A stretch of DNA of 64,000 nucleotides, taken from NCBI RefSeq assembly GCF_014640075.1, contig NZ_BMGG01000001.1:248001-312000 (forward strand), written 5' to 3'. Positions 26,544-31,504 of the stretch are shown here, piece by piece. The notes under the pieces are model-generated. The model ran no database searches and was not told the origin of the DNA. It worked only from the letters and a program-made list of their open reading frames with translations. The translations under genes and the position numbers were made by a program. Each line of letters starts with the position of its first letter. Within the stretch, counting starts at the first letter, position 1. This DNA comes from Chelatococcus reniformis. GTDB taxonomy: Bacteria; Pseudomonadota; Alphaproteobacteria; Rhizobiales; Beijerinckiaceae.

Positions 26544-26562
26544 GTGTACCTACACATATATG
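26544..26562 (-). promoter_or_regulatory. Operator candidate upstream of the PaaI thioesterase
   Basis: On the minus strand this reads CATATATGTGTAGGTACAC. Its core GTGTA-GG-TACAC is a perfect palindrome (26544-26555). It matches 15 of 19 bases with the site upstream of the TesB-like gene. Being 6 bp from the start codon, a bound protein would block transcription or translation initiation. Confidence 0.5.
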
Positions 26563-26739
26563 AACGGGCGGCGGATGGCAAGCAGGCGCCGCCGCGCCCC
26601 GTCCCCTCACCAAAAACACCGCCTTGCCCCGCATGGAATTTGGCTTATTCTGGCCGTTGCCAGAGCAGCAAGGACGCTGCCCGGCGCACGAGCAGGAAGC
26701 TCTCGACCGCAGGCGCGGCGAGAGCTTTTCTTTTTTCGA

Positions 26740-27924
26740 ATGGGATCCGCGATGGCAGCAGCGCCCGGTTGGCCGAACGAGCCCCTGAAGGTCGGCGTTC
26801 TGTTCTCGTCGTCGGGGGTGACCAGCGCGGTCGAGCGCACACAGCTTCTGGCGACACTGCTCGCCATCGACGAGATCAACCGCCGCGGCGGCATCGGCGG
26901 CCGCCCCATCGAACCGCTGGTGCAGGATCCGCAATCCAATCCAAAACTGTACCGCCAGTTCGCCGAGCAACTGCTCAAGGACGATGGCGCGCGCATTATC
27001 TTCGGCTGCTACATGTCGAGCGCCCGCAAGGCGGTGCTCCCGCTCGTCGAGGCACGCGACGCGCTGCTGGTCTACCCGACGCTCTACGAAGGCTTCGAGT
27101 ATTCCCCCAATTGCATCTATACAGGCGCCGTTCCCAACCAGAACTCGCTGCCGCTGGCGAAATACATCCTGGAGAATCATGGCAACCGCGTACTGCTGGT
27201 GGGATCGAACTACATCTTTCCGTACGAATCCAACCGCATCTTCTCCGATCTGATCATCGAAGCGCGCGGCAAGGTGCTGGACGAGCTGTACGTGCCGCTG
27301 TCGCCTGCCCCGGAGGATTTCGCGCGCACCCTGCGCCAGATCGAAAAGCTCAAGCCGGACACGGTCTTCTCGACCATCGTCGGGGCGGGCACGGCGATGT
27401 TCTACGAGGCCTACCGCCGCGCGGGCTTCAACGCCCTGGTCAATCCGATCGCCAGCCTGACGACGAGCGAGGCCGAGGTTGCCGAGATGTCGGCGGAGGC
27501 CGCCGAAGGCCACCTCACCGCAGCGCCCTATTTCGCGTCGTTGCAGACACCGGCGAACCTTGCCTTCGTCAGTGCCTACCGCGAGCGCTTCGGGCCCGAC
27601 ATCCCGGTCACCGCGGCAGCCGAGGCCGCCTATTTCCAGGTGCACCTCGTCGCCTCGGCCCTGGCGCAGGCCGGCAGCCTCGACCGCCGCGACATCGTCG
27701 CGGCCATGCGCGGCGTCGGATTCGAGGCACCGCAGGGGGCCGTGGCGCTCGACCCAGAGAATCACCATACGTACCTGTGGCCGCGCGTCGCCAGGCTCGA
27801 CGCCGACAAACAGTTCCGCATCATCTGGAACCCCAACGTGCGCATGAAGCCGGACCCCTATTTCGTCTCCGGCGCCATGAACGACTGGTCACCGGGAGGC
27901 CGGGCCCCGGCCCGGGCCACCTGA
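26740..27924 (+). CDS. amiC: AmiC-like amide sensor/negative regulator
   Basis: A 394-residue protein with the periplasmic-binding fold but no signal peptide, as in Pseudomonas AmiC, which binds small amides in the cytoplasm and sequesters AmiR. Similarity runs end to end: VGVLFSSSGVTSAVERTQL, GCYMSSARKAVLPLVE, TLYEGFEYSPNCIY, SLTTSEAEVAEMSAEAAEG and a tail ending NDWSPGGR. The start MGSAM at 26740 mirrors the MGS start of AmiC; ATG 26752 is an alternative and the frame extends to 26560. amiR follows 4 bp later, so the sensor and antiterminator are co-expressed. Confidence 0.87.
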   Translation: MGSAMAAAPGWPNEPLKVGVLFSSSGVTSAVERTQLLATLLAIDEINRRGGIGGRPIEPLVQDPQSNPKLYRQFAEQLLKDDGARIIFGCYMSSARKAVLPLVEARDALLVYPTLYEGFEYSPNCIYTGAVPNQNSLPLAKYILENHGNRVLLVGSNYIFPYESNRIFSDLIIEARGKVLDELYVPLSPAPEDFARTLRQIEKLKPDTVFSTIVGAGTAMFYEAYRRAGFNALVNPIASLTTSEAEVAEMSAEAAEGHLTAAPYFASLQTPANLAFVSAYRERFGPDIPVTAAAEAAYFQVHLVASALAQAGSLDRRDIVAAMRGVGFEAPQGAVALDPENHHTYLWPRVARLDADKQFRIIWNPNVRMKPDPYFVSGAMNDWSPGGRAPARAT

Positions 27925-27928
27925 CCCG

Positions 27929-28537
27929 ATGGCCATGCCGCCGCTCAAGAGCCTCAAGGGGCTCTCGGTCCTGATCATCCACCCCGCCAACACGGACGGA
28001 CAGATCCTGGTCGACCACATCAAGCGCATCGGCTGCCGGGCGGAGGCGCAATGGCCGATTCCCAAGGCGATCCCCGCGACGACGGATGTATTGTTCCTGT
28101 CGGTCGACCATGAGTATCGCACGGAGCTGTCGCGGCTGGTCAGGAACATCGACGGCATCCCGCCGACGACCGTCGCCATCGTCGACTACGAGAATCCGAG
28201 CACCCTCGAGCTGCTGTTCGAGATCGGCGCGCTCGCCGCCATGGAGCGGCCGATCCGCCCGTTCGGCGTGCTCACCAACCTGCTGCTGGCGCGCGGCCTG
28301 TGGCTCGACCGCATCGAGCAGCAGAAACGTGTGACGAAGCTGGAACGCAAGCTGTCCAGCATGCAGCGGATCCAGAAGGCCAAGTCGATCCTGATGGCGC
28401 TCCAGGGCGTCGGCGAGGAGGCCGCCTACCAGACGATCCGCAAGCAGGCGATGGCCAAGCGGGTCTCCATGGACGAGATCGCGACTTCGATCATCAACGC
28501 CAATGAGCTCTTGCATTCGATCAGAAACGATGATTGA
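27929..28537 (+). CDS. amiR: AmiR-like ANTAR-domain antiterminator
   Basis: A 202-residue regulator with an N-terminal pseudo-receiver (LSVLIIHPANTDGQILVDHI; it lacks the acidic phosphorylation pocket), a central coiled coil (about 125-150, RIEQQKRVTKLERKL) and a C-terminal ANTAR RNA-binding three-helix domain (KAKSILMALQGVGEEAAYQTIRKQAM). Like Pseudomonas AmiR it should bind a leader RNA and stop transcription termination when AmiC releases it on amide binding. A leader with an intrinsic terminator lies directly downstream and before amiE. Confidence 0.87.
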   Translation: MAMPPLKSLKGLSVLIIHPANTDGQILVDHIKRIGCRAEAQWPIPKAIPATTDVLFLSVDHEYRTELSRLVRNIDGIPPTTVAIVDYENPSTLELLFEIGALAAMERPIRPFGVLTNLLLARGLWLDRIEQQKRVTKLERKLSSMQRIQKAKSILMALQGVGEEAAYQTIRKQAMAKRVSMDEIATSIINANELLHSIRNDD

Positions 28538-28539
28538 AT
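28511..28539 (+). promoter_or_regulatory. Weak candidate promoter for the amiE leader
   Basis: TTGCAT at 28511-28516 and TTGAAT at 28534-28539 are separated by exactly 17 bases at the end of amiR. The boxes match sigma-70 consensus only in part. If real, transcription would begin just before the leader hairpins and give amiE its own regulated transcript. Confidence 0.25.
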
Positions 28540-28655
28540 TTTGAAGGTTCGCGATGAACCCGCCGCTTAGCGGCAGATCGGACGAGACAGTGCTGTCCGT
28601 CCGAAGTGGCTAGGAAGCCCAAGTCCTCCTGCGGGAGCGCTTGGGCTTTTTTGTT
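28540..28655 (+). promoter_or_regulatory. amiE leader: candidate ANTAR-controlled attenuator
   Basis: The region between amiR and amiE can form several hairpins. They are GGTTC/GAACC (28544-28560 area), CCGC/GCGG just after, a long stem TCGGACG/CGTCCGA (28578-28604), and GGCT-AGGA-AGCC (28608-28619). The last shares bases with the 5' arm of the terminator at 28616-28623, so the two structures exclude each other. This is the geometry expected of an antitermination switch worked by AmiR. The tandem hexanucleotide loops described for ANTAR targets were looked for and not clearly found. Confidence 0.55.
28616..28652 (+). terminator. Intrinsic terminator in the amiE leader
   Basis: AGCCCAAG (28616-28623) pairs with CTTGGGCT (28640-28647), with an inner CTCC/GGAG stem, followed by a run of T (28647-28652). 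It lies about 325 bp before the amiE start and not at a gene end, so it is best read as the attenuator that AmiR must overcome. Confidence 0.85.
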
Positions 28656-28975
28656 TTCAGCTGCCGACAGGGACGTCGGTGCAGCGCTCCATGACGTACC
28701 GATCTTGGCGCGCGTTGCGGCCGCATTGACTGCTTTGGCGGCAAGTAACGCGCCCGATGTCTGAAGTGCTGGAGCAAATCGTTCCAGCCGGCGCGGCCAT
28801 GTCCGAGCCGGCGACATCCGACCGATCCGCGCAGTTGCCACGCCGCCGGCGTGCCGGCGCGACCTCCGCCCGATTCAGCCGCTGGCCTCCAGCCGGCGCA
28901 ACGAAAACGTGTGGCCGCCACGGCCGGACCGATGCCAGCAGACGTCCGCGCGGATGCCCCGAGAAGGAAAATGTC
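28656..28975 (+). other. Long untranslated leader between terminator and amiE
   Basis: About 320 bp with no supported gene. A short hairpin (CTGCCGAC with GTCGGTGCAG, around 28661-28684) follows the terminator. The amiE frame stays open through this stretch to 28757, but the residues are Arg/Pro-rich and unlike AmiE, so it is taken as leader. Confidence 0.45.
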
Positions 28976-30016
28976 ATGCAACACGGCGACATCTCTTCCA
29001 GCAAAGACTCCGTCGGCGTTGCCGTCGTCAACTACAAGATGCCGCGGCTCCATACACGCGCGGAAGTTCTGGCCAACGCCAAGAAGATCGCCGAGATGAT
29101 GATCGGCATGAAGCGCGGCTTGCCGGGCATGGACCTCGTCATCTTCCCGGAATACTCGACACACGGGATCATGTACGATCCGGGCGAGATGTACGAGACC
29201 GCATCGCAAATCCCCGGTGACGAGTCCGAGATCTTTGCCGAGGCCTGCCGCACCGCCAAGTGCTGGGGTGTCTTTTCCCTCACCGGCGAGCGCCATGAGG
29301 AACATCCCAACAAGGCGCCCTACAACACGCTGATCCTGATGAACGACAAGGGGGAGATCGTTCAGAAGTATCGCAAGATCATGCCGTGGGTGCCGATCGA
29401 GGGCTGGTATCCCGGCGACTGCACCTATGTCTCGGAAGGCCCCAAGGGGCTCAAGATCAGCCTGATCATCTGCGACGATGGCAACTATCCCGAGATCTGG
29501 CGCGACTGCGCCATGCGGGGCGCCGAGCTGGTGGTGCGCTGCCAGGGCTACATGTACCCGGCTAAGGAACAGCAGATCGTCATGGCCAAGGCGATGGCCT
29601 GGGCCAACAATGTCTACGTCGCGGTGGCCAACGCCGCCGGCTTCGACGGCGTCTACACCTACTTCGGCCATTCCGCCATCGTCGGCTTCGACGGCCGCAC
29701 GCTCGGCGAATGCGGCACCGAGGAGATGGGCATCCAGTACGCCCAACTGTCGGTGCCGCTGATCCGCGAGGCGCGGGTCAAGGGCCAGGCGCAGAACCAC
29801 CTCTACAAGCTGCTGCACCGCGGCTACACAGGCATGATCAACTCGGGTGAGGATCCGCGCGGCACCTGCGCGCTGCCCTTCGAATTTTACAAGAAATGGG
29901 CGAACGACCCGGAAGGCACCCGCGACATGGTGGAGGCGCTGACGCGCCAGGCTCCCGGCGTCGAGGACAACCCGATCGAAGGCATCCCACTCAAGGTCGC
30001 CGGCGGACACCGCTAG
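28976..30016 (+). CDS. amiE: Aliphatic amidase
   Basis: A 346-residue nitrilase-superfamily amidase, exactly the length of Pseudomonas AmiE. It hydrolyses short aliphatic amides to carboxylate and ammonia in the cytoplasm. The catalytic triad falls at the family positions: E59 in VIFPEYST, K134 in QKYRKIMPW and C166 in LIICDDGN. The ATG at 28976 has AAGGA upstream and restores this numbering. It sits downstream of an attenuator and of amiC-amiR. The permease that follows replaces the amiB/amiS of Pseudomonas, suggesting that a different amide or uptake route is used. Confidence 0.95.
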
Positions 30017-30030
30017 CCGGTCGCCCCGAT

Positions 30031-30056
30031 CATGGCCGGGATCGGCCCCGGCCATG
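30031..30056. repeat. Perfect hairpin between amiE and the permease
   Basis: CATGGCCGGG (30031-30040) and CCCGGCCATG (30047-30056) form a 10-bp stem with a 6-base loop. It resembles the short palindromic repeats elsewhere in the window (core CGGG...CCCG) and has no T-run, so it may stabilise the upstream mRNA and need not end transcription. Confidence 0.5.
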
Positions 30057-30190
30057 ACGAAACGGGCCGTGAGCAAGGCAAGGCGGCCGCTGGCGAGTAT
30101 CGGTCGCCCGAAGGGCCGCCCGGTGCCAGCTCATCGTGATGGAGCGTGCAGGGATCTCGGCGACAACACGGCAGACGCGAGGGGCAGCAG

Positions 30191-31504
30191 ATGAGCCAAG
30201 CAACGGCACAGACCGCGACGGACGAAATCGATCACGTCCTGGGTGATGAATACGAACATAATCCGGTGCCGGCCGCGGCGCGCCACGGCCTGTTCTCGAT
30301 GATCCTGGTCTGGGCCGGCTTTCCCATGATCATCACCGGCGCCATGACCGGATCGCTGCTCGTGCTCGGCATGGGCTTCTCGCGTGCCCTGGTGGCGATG
30401 GTGGTCGGCAATCTGATCATGCTGGCCTATGTGGCAGCGCTCGGTCATCTCGGCATGCGCTCCGGCTCCAACTTCGCGCTCATCGCCAACAAGGTGTTCG
30501 GCCAGAAGGGCTACATGTTGGCCTCGGGGCTGCTGTCGACCCTGCTGCTCGGCTGGTACGCGGTGCAGACCGGCATCACCGGCGCGCTGATCAGCGGCAC
30601 CTACGGCCTCAACTACGTCGCCATGACCGTCGTGGCGGGCCTCCTCTACATCGCCATTACCTTCGTCGGCGTGAAGGGGCTGCACTACATCGGCCTGGTC
30701 TCGGTGCCGCTGTTCGTCATCCTCGGCGTCTTCGTCGCCGGGCACGCCGCCGCGACCGCGGGTTGGAGTGCGATCATGAGCTATGCCGGCAACAACGGCG
30801 TCGCCACCATGTCCATGGGGGTCGGCCTCACCGTGGTGATCGCCCTGTTCATCGATGCCGGCACCGTCACCGCCGACTTCAACCGGTGGGCCAAGAACGG
30901 CACCCACTCGTTGATCGCCACATTCTCCGCCTTCCCCGTGGCCAACCTGGTCGCCATGCTGGTCGGCGGCATCATGACAGCGGCCCTCGCCGTGCCGAAC
31001 GCCAATCCGTTCGGCGCCGACAACATGTTCGGCTACATGAACTCGCTGCACGTCGGCTGGCTCAGCGTGCTCGCCTTCCTGTTCCTCTACATCAACCTCG
31101 GCTCGGTCTGCTCGCACTGCCTGTACAACGCGGCCACCGGCTGGTCGCGCATCCTCGGCACCCACATGCGCGTCATGGCGGTGGTGCTGGGCGCCATCGG
31201 CATCGCCGTCGCCGCCGGCAACATCTGGGCCTTCTTCATCCAGTGGCTGTCGCTCCTCGGCATTCTCGTGCCGCCCATCGGCGTCATCATGCTGCTCGAC
31301 CGCTACGTGATCCGGCCGCAGGCCGAGGCGACCAGCGACTGGCGCCCGACCGCTTTTGGCGCCTGGGCCATCGGCTCGCTGGCGGCCTTCGTCGTCGAAT
31401 TCTACGCGCCACAGCTGTCGACGGCCCTCTCGTCCGGGATCGTCGCGGGCGCCGCCTATTGGGGCCTCTCCTACGCGATAGCCCCGAAGCCGCAGGCCGC
31501 CTGA
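30191..31504 (+). CDS. NCS1-family nucleobase/amide:cation symporter (CodB-like)
   Basis: A 437-residue inner-membrane transporter with about twelve hydrophobic segments, similar to cytosine permease CodB and related NCS1 carriers. Recognisable parts are HGLFSMILVWAGFPMIITGA in TM1 and DAGTVTADFNRWAKNGTHSL near TM6-7, a CodB-like signature. ATG 30191 follows GGGGCAGCAG. It stands where Pseudomonas ami operons carry the AmiS/UreI channel, so it probably imports the amide, urea derivative or nucleobase that feeds the amidase and urease. The substrate is inference. Confidence 0.83.
   Translation: MSQATAQTATDEIDHVLGDEYEHNPVPAAARHGLFSMILVWAGFPMIITGAMTGSLLVLGMGFSRALVAMVVGNLIMLAYVAALGHLGMRSGSNFALIANKVFGQKGYMLASGLLSTLLLGWYAVQTGITGALISGTYGLNYVAMTVVAGLLYIAITFVGVKGLHYIGLVSVPLFVILGVFVAGHAAATAGWSAIMSYAGNNGVATMSMGVGLTVVIALFIDAGTVTADFNRWAKNGTHSLIATFSAFPVANLVAMLVGGIMTAALAVPNANPFGADNMFGYMNSLHVGWLSVLAFLFLYINLGSVCSHCLYNAATGWSRILGTHMRVMAVVLGAIGIAVAAGNIWAFFIQWLSLLGILVPPIGVIMLLDRYVIRPQAEATSDWRPTAFGAWAIGSLAAFVVEFYAPQLSTALSSGIVAGAAYWGLSYAIAPKPQAA

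Follow-up and report, generated by a model that had tools for sequence, protein, structure and literature searches.

The question raised by this locus is how the ANTAR-domain regulator AmiR could control the amidase gene encoded behind its own, and which RNA element in the leader between the two genes it would recognise. The locus lies in a stretch of 64,000 nucleotides from Chelatococcus reniformis, which is referred to here as the window. The leader quite probably forms an AmiR-dependent attenuator between amiCR and amiE, with a third hairpin, P3, as a further putative AmiR site that is made in the read-through RNA.

The amiCR-amiE locus

All genes of the locus are on the forward strand, in the order amiC, amiR, leader with terminator and amiE, followed by a nucleobase permease-like gene and a MetX-like gene. 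The sensor gene (26560..27924), which is amiC/urtA-like, encodes a Peripla_BP_5 protein (Pfam PF13433, E 3.3e-135) and scores 307 bits against the NCBIfam model urea_ABC_UrtA, under the cut-off of 493. The amiR gene (27929..28537) encodes a pseudo-receiver domain, AmiR_N (PF21332, E 2e-35), and an ANTAR domain (PF03861, E 2.8e-15), both over their cut-offs, as expected of the AmiR family. In phmmer the product matches AmiR 1qo0_D over residues 6-189 (E 6.5e-22), and none of the NCBIfam models matches it. The aliphatic amidase gene amiE (28976..30016; NCBIfam NF009802, 690 bits, cut-off 427) is taken as the regulated gene. The genome has five ANTAR-domain matches. The absence of promoter-like sites from 27300-30200, where 0.4 would be expected, decides nothing.

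The sequence-only reading had proposed an ANTAR (AmiR) attenuator in which a leader hairpin is set against the terminator, and this proposal is strengthened by the gene just before the leader, which encodes an AmiR with both the AmiR_N and the ANTAR domain.

Structure of the leader

The elements of the leader are all on the forward strand. The long stem that had been noticed just before the small hairpin occupies exactly 28578-28604 and is P1, which has 10 bp with one bulged A and a hexaloop, AGUGCU, at 28589-28594, with A at position 1 (A1) and G at position 4 (G4). P2, the putative antiterminator hairpin GGC[UAGGAA]GCC (28608..28619), has its loop at 28611-28616 (U1, G4). The intrinsic terminator stem (28612..28651), taken from the minimum free energy (MFE) fold and its energies, overlaps P2 and pairs 28612-28624 with 28639-28651 in the fold of 28540-28655, and the U-tract TTTTTTGTTTT, read from the sequence, spans 28647..28657. 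As had been claimed, the GGC-N6-GCC hairpin GGCTAGGAAGCC at 28608-28619 and the terminator are mutually exclusive, the 3' arm of the hairpin being the start of the 5' arm of the terminator.

The P2 stem has 3 bp, or 4 with U1-A6; both tandem hairpins have at least 3 bp, as a dual hexaloop requires. The pairs A1-U6 in P1 and U1-A6 in P2 would turn the hexaloops into tetraloops, and folding draws them in this way; the P1 hexaloop is hidden in the MFE fold because A1 is drawn paired with U6. The earlier remark that tandem A1/G4 hexaloops are not obvious holds for P2, which has G4 but U1, and fails for P1, which has such a loop. With A1 and G4 in the P1 hexaloop and G4 in that of P2, the suggestion of a different type of recognition element is not upheld.

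The fold of 28540-28655 has an energy of -59 kcal/mol, compared with -40.1 +/- 3.3 for 200 dinucleotide shuffles, none of which is as low (z -5.7). With P2 forced, 28578-28655 folds at -33.9 kcal/mol, compared with -44.8 for the terminator form; since the terminator form is better by 10.9 kcal/mol, P2 would be kept only with a helper, as the ANTAR mechanism provides. In stepwise 5' to 3' folding, P2 is in the optimal fold when the RNA ends at 28619, 28625 or 28644, a different small hairpin uses the P2 5' arm at 28632 and 28638, and the terminator is formed at 28650. The leader terminator is not listed by a simple terminator scan, probably because a stem mismatch breaks the rule of the scan. 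By itself the P2 pattern GGCNNNGNNGCCC is not rare, with 22 matches in the window and 18.6 expected. No Rfam family matches the window at its gathering score; a permissive scan of 28530-28720 gives one miRNA match, which at 23.6 bits falls short of its threshold of 80 and is taken as chance.

Two further hairpins (GGTTC..GAACC and GCCGC..GCGGC) lie upstream of P1 at 28546-28574, with loops that are not of the ANTAR type, and hairpins with changed stems are seen by eye at similar places before P1 in leaders L001 and L075 of Ancylobacter. At 28606-28664 of the window the MFE fold pairs the P2 5' arm with AGCUGC past the U-tract, extending the terminator form; no counterpart of this pairing is seen by eye in L001, the one relative viewed.

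P1 and P2 in related leaders

AmiR loci of at least 85 bits were merged if their first 200 nt downstream were the same, leaving 78 distinct downstream regions to be scored. A P2-like hairpin followed by a U-tract is present in 66 of these regions, and the other 12, in which no hairpin of the pattern GGC-N3-G-N2/3-GCC is followed by a U-run at 90 nt or less, were dropped. The AmiR of 41 of the 66 is at least 44% identical to the window AmiR, a limit picked after the data had been seen, and the remaining 25 leaders belong to more distant AmiRs; in some of the distant leaders the pattern caught P1 instead of P2, the U-tract being the same. In a quick tree the AmiRs of the 41 leaders form one group, with a support of 83 that is unstarred and accompanied by long-branch warnings. 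A MAFFT alignment, which covered 25 of the 32 leaders with P3, misplaced P1 and P3 in several rows, and the counts were made on anchored pieces.

P1 with an A1/G4 hexaloop is present in 24/41 leaders when counted in a relaxed manner with a shuffle control, compared with 1.2 expected from dinucleotide shuffles and 5/41 for the next letter pair, G1/G4. A stricter count gives A1/G4 in 14/41; at 7 bp, 19 are found compared with 0.7. Judged by eye, the 17 leaders that were missed comprise two with A1/G4 on a less regular stem (L075 and L076), ten with G1/G4 (L052, L093, L094, L003, L004, L097, L045 and L079-L081) and five with no clear P1 of either kind (L078, L100, L101, L102 and L105).

In P2, even though no loop letters were required, G4 is present in 38/39 leaders, counted on the last P2 match in each leader, so that the lone case without G4 may be a wrong pick. 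Position 1 in the same 39 leaders is U in 15, G in 11, A in 12 and C in one. The six-base spacing is kept in the relatives, except for the seven-base P2 loop in L003 and L004. This fixed spacing, together with G4 amid varying neighbours, supports the predicted P2 hairpin. The only changed P2 stem, AGC[TATGCA]GCT, is found in the distant leaders L065 and L067, and the search in the 41 leaders, in which GGC/GCC was fixed, is blind to stem changes.

In the window, P1 and P2 both have a hexanucleotide loop (AGUGCU and UAGGAA) with G4, and P2 overlaps an intrinsic terminator, as in the dual-hexaloop class; A1 is found in P1 only, since position 1 of P2 is U. Judged from these features, the P1-P2 pair is an AmiR-type dual-hexaloop attenuator, of a known kind, in which position 1 of the P2 loop is relaxed. 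It is filed as a variant and not as a strict member because P2 is without A1 and the EutV structure, as described in PMC8934654, shows no specific A1 contact. That the fixed letter of P2 is G4 and not A1 (12/39) is in line with the same structure (PMC8934654). A search that demanded A1 in both loops would miss 27/39 of these amide and urea leaders.

Several other leaders have distinctive features. Eight leaders of distant AmiRs (L018, L019, L020, L069, L071, L086, L087 and L103) have two tandem A1 hexaloop hairpins before P2 instead of one, with a position 4 that is often not G; three-hairpin leaders of another order therefore exist. L103, the sole annotated member of the eight, precedes a nitrilase gene. 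The second AmiR of the window's own genome (L074; G000:C10, about 167411-167986) is 41% identical to the window AmiR, and its gene is followed by a terminator with a P2-like hairpin that has a seven-base loop, GGC[TAAGGGA]GCC. At L141 (G000:C16:5924-5984), in the same genome, the P2-like hairpin GGC[AGAGTA]GCC, with A1 and G4, lies about 21 nt upstream of a strong terminator and does not overlap it. L108 and L110, upstream of amiE in other groups of the phylum, have a terminator with hexaloop-like hairpins without G4 (AACAAG and AAAAAA), which may not be the true sites, and were left out of the counts; no leader of this kind is seen at L109. P2-like hairpins near an A-run give nine matches at eight places in the genome of the window (five in the reversed control), and inspection by eye of these nine candidates for trans targets shows a P2 3' arm inside a terminator stem at the window's own site alone.

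The third hairpin, P3

A few bases after the U-tract, distal to the terminator, the window has another hairpin of the ANTAR type, P3 (UGCCGAC[AGGGAC]GUCGGUG, 28662..28681, forward strand), with its loop (A1, G4) at 28669-28674. A hexaloop hairpin of at least 4 bp with A1/G4, at most 65 nt from the U-tract start, is present in 32/41 leaders (L056 and L098 being doubtful), compared with 2.0 expected by shuffle and a maximum of 10 in 200,000 simulated sets. The 25 distant leaders are at chance level, with 3 compared with 2.1 expected. When near-identical stretches are merged, 37 leaders are left and 29 A1/G4 hexaloop hairpins of at least 4 bp are counted, the next letter pairs giving 6 each. The stem core GAC-N6-GTY is present in 31/41 leaders, while spacers of 3-5 and 7-12 give 0-8. 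Of the 31 core cases, 29 have A1, 29 have G4 and 29 have both together, and the mirror positions 6 and 3 vary. The same core is found in 1/25 distant leaders and in none with A1/G4; the distant rows L090, L091 and L103, which carry the P3 label in the tree, have no GAC core and are taken as chance.

The stem of P3 also has two-sided changes. Among the 24 different sequences that 30 loci provide (L056 and L098 left out), such changes occupy 23 cells, compared with 9.7 when shuffled (0/500 as high), and affect 5/7 stem pairs (11/500 shuffles as high); slid versions are lower on every measure, and the counts of the inner four pairs lean towards pairing, since the selection of P3 required A1/G4 and at least 4 bp. 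The loop consensus common to P1 and P3 is A-R-N-G-N-N, and that of P3 alone is A-R-N-G-N-Y.

The start of P3 is 11-32 nt (median 18) past the U-tract start in 30 core cases. The distance from the core to the first matched gene is 61-352 nt, a small intervening gene going unseen; of five query proteins, amiE is the first to be matched downstream in 18 of the 41 leaders, urtA in 21 and ureE in 2. Because the distance to the U-tract is steady, while the distance and identity of the gene vary, P3 is attached to the terminator and not to the ribosome binding site or to one gene. A search for a terminator plus P3 that was independent of AmiR, in 397 genomes of the order, gives 22 matches in 19 genomes and 7 in the reversed-pattern control. 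Eleven of the 22 are AmiR leaders, all with P2, and the other eleven are near the control level; among the latter, the P2 letters are found in one match (L116), where they are part of an ordinary terminator hairpin, and the remaining ten are without P2 letters.

Each of the three main branches into which the 41-row group falls on the AmiR tree has leaders with P3, Variovorax, a betaproteobacterium, being among them. P3 is absent from 9/41 leaders, six of which are in one branch with L003 and L004 of Bradyrhizobium, the others being L016, L048 and L050; it is therefore not essential. This distribution, on a tree whose root was not inferred, suggests that P3 has one origin with some losses. P3 is present in 13/13 leaders with A1 in P2 and in 19/28 others, a difference (p 0.04) that is weakened by the relatedness of the sequences.

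More ANTAR hairpins past P3, at 70-200 nt after the U-tract start, are found in 2/41 leaders, as many as single-base shuffling predicts (2.0). The idea that P3 is a dispersed palindromic repeat was rejected: the window has a single copy of the core CGACANNGNNGTCG (0.46 expected), that of P3 itself, so P3 is not a local repeat. This single occurrence is not significant alone, and the case for P3 is the comparison of leaders, according to which P3, as a predicted hairpin, is conserved with one AmiR group. In a search of the open-access literature, no description of an ANTAR hairpin beyond a terminator was found.

Proposed mechanism

Transcription of the leader presumably enters from amiCR. When no amide is present, the AmiC-like sensor would keep AmiR inactive, and RNA polymerase would stop at 28647-28657. 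When an inducer is present, freed AmiR would bind the P1 hexaloop and then the emerging P2 hexaloop, holding P2, so that the terminator 5' arm would be occupied and amiE would be transcribed. After read-through P3, a hexaloop hairpin of the same class, would be made just past the U-tract. AmiR may also bind P3, and would most likely stay on the read-through RNA, either by hand-on from P2 or as a titration that limits induction. Since transcription reaches P3 only by going past the terminator, P3 cannot be what decides termination of its own RNA.

A tentative reading, to which we give somewhat less than an even chance, is that P3 is a terminator-distal AmiR-binding hexaloop and that AmiR moves along with the polymerase from P1 over P2 to P3, remaining on the RNA just behind it. 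This would be a post-termination stage of the ANTAR switch, which could serve for retention, for feedback or even for processive protection of the elongating complex. No description of such a stage was found in the open-access literature.

In an alignment read by eye, with the EutV numbering fitted to the residues named in PMC8934654, AmiR keeps the equivalents of EutV Tyr164, Met172, Lys147, Lys149, Glu160, Arg168 and Arg175, while those of Arg142, Lys143, Asn173 and Arg177 are absent, the residues there being Met, Gln, Ala and Ser. In the EutV structure Tyr164 is the stacking partner of G4, and A1 has no specific contact; each site contacts one hexaloop through G4, and the authors allow for single-hexaloop sites (PMC8934654). 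The same work describes a single hexaloop as a sufficient binding site, proposes a hand-over from P1 to P2 and calls for work on the role of single-hexaloop sites (PMC8934654). An ANTAR dimer may use its two hexaloops one at a time with hand-over, as the EutV structure suggests (PMC8934654). A conserved single hexaloop in a place where a direct effect on termination is impossible lends itself to testing this, and of the whole finding it is this third hexaloop, conserved and distal to the terminator, that is worth testing.

Some features do not fit the switch so well. The P1-P2 linker is 3 nt, which counts against it, and a linker of 3 nt impaired the E. faecalis eutP leader (PMC3369931). Changes at position 1, including A53U in the eutP leader, cut EutV-dependent induction, and EutV binding is lowered by changes at positions 1 and 4 (PMC3369931); the relaxed position 1 of P2 runs against the strict A1/G4 rule and this effect of A53U (PMC3369931). 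A result that speaks against binding at P3 is the lower affinity of NasR for one hairpin, P2, than for both, about 12 uM (PMC7496416).

Alternative explanations

P3 might be bound by AmiR as a titration, that is, as negative feedback, without aiding read-through or holding AmiR near the polymerase. This is a serious possibility, although not one we would favour. Extra ANTAR sites that titrate their regulators are reported for EutX/rli55 (PMC8934654) and for the PPE1-5' RNA (PMC8131098), and the presence of P3 only in read-through RNA suits feedback, but one cis site per transcript would add little as a sink to P1 and P2, which the same RNA already has. P3 is less likely to be a plain hairpin that stabilises or processes the read-through mRNA, with loop letters inherited from an old duplication of P1. 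Its closeness to the 5' side of the message that follows and the consensus common to P1 and P3 agree with this reading; a plain hairpin would not, however, need to keep A1/G4 loops in 29/31 core cases while its stems change.

As would suit a DNA operator, the core GAC-N6-GTC forms a palindrome of conserved sequence, 61-352 nt before the first recognised gene; on this view P3 would not be an RNA element but an inverted repeat at which a DNA-binding protein regulates the genes that follow. An operator is nevertheless improbable, because the spacer is asymmetric, with A1 and G4 kept where positions 6 and 3 vary, and because P3 follows the terminator and not the gene: it is over chance only with this AmiR group and lies near the terminator whichever gene comes next. 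In addition, the stem length and outer pairs of P3 vary with compensation, and its loop fits the P1 consensus. It is most improbable of all that AmiR recognises, over the whole leader, an element unlike the ANTAR dual hexaloop. The lack of A1 in P2 and the five leaders without a recognised A1/G4 or G1/G4 P1 would suit such an element, but A1/G4 in P1 is far over chance and G4 in P2 is near invariant. A dual-hexaloop attenuator with P3 as an additional putative AmiR site is the preferred reading.

Comparison with known systems

This attenuator resembles the ANTAR dual-hexaloop antiterminators (EutV/eut, NasR/nasF and AmiR/amiE) in having two hairpins with six-base loops and G4, of which P2 excludes an intrinsic terminator, and in its association with nitrogen genes and a nearby ANTAR gene (PMC3369931). 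ANTAR RNA matches upstream of urea transporters have already been reported (PMC3369931). The leaders of the present group differ from these systems in that A1 is present in P2 in only 12/39, the stem of P1 is long and is interrupted by a bulge or mismatch, and a third hexaloop hairpin follows the U-tract. A loose conservation of A1/G4 (>50%) has already been reported for actinobacterial ANTAR RNAs (PMC8164766).

The AmiC-AmiR system of P. aeruginosa likewise has an AmiC-like sensor, an AmiR with a pseudo-receiver domain and amiE as the controlled gene, and its leader has A1/G4 loops (PMC3369931). The gene order there is amiECBRS, with amiE first (PMC3369936), while here it is amiC-amiR-leader-amiE. 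In contrast to the amidase system of P. aeruginosa, the related leaders precede urtA or ureE in 23/41 and amiE in 18/41, so the system would be as much a urea as an amide regulator. Examples among the 41 leaders are L001, L075, L077, L078, L100, L102 and L076.

EutX/rli55 and other RNAs that sequester ANTAR proteins also have extra ANTAR hexaloops beyond the dual motif, EutX being reported to have an additional single hexaloop with G4 (PMC8934654). Those RNAs act in trans, whereas P3 is in cis, directly behind the terminator.
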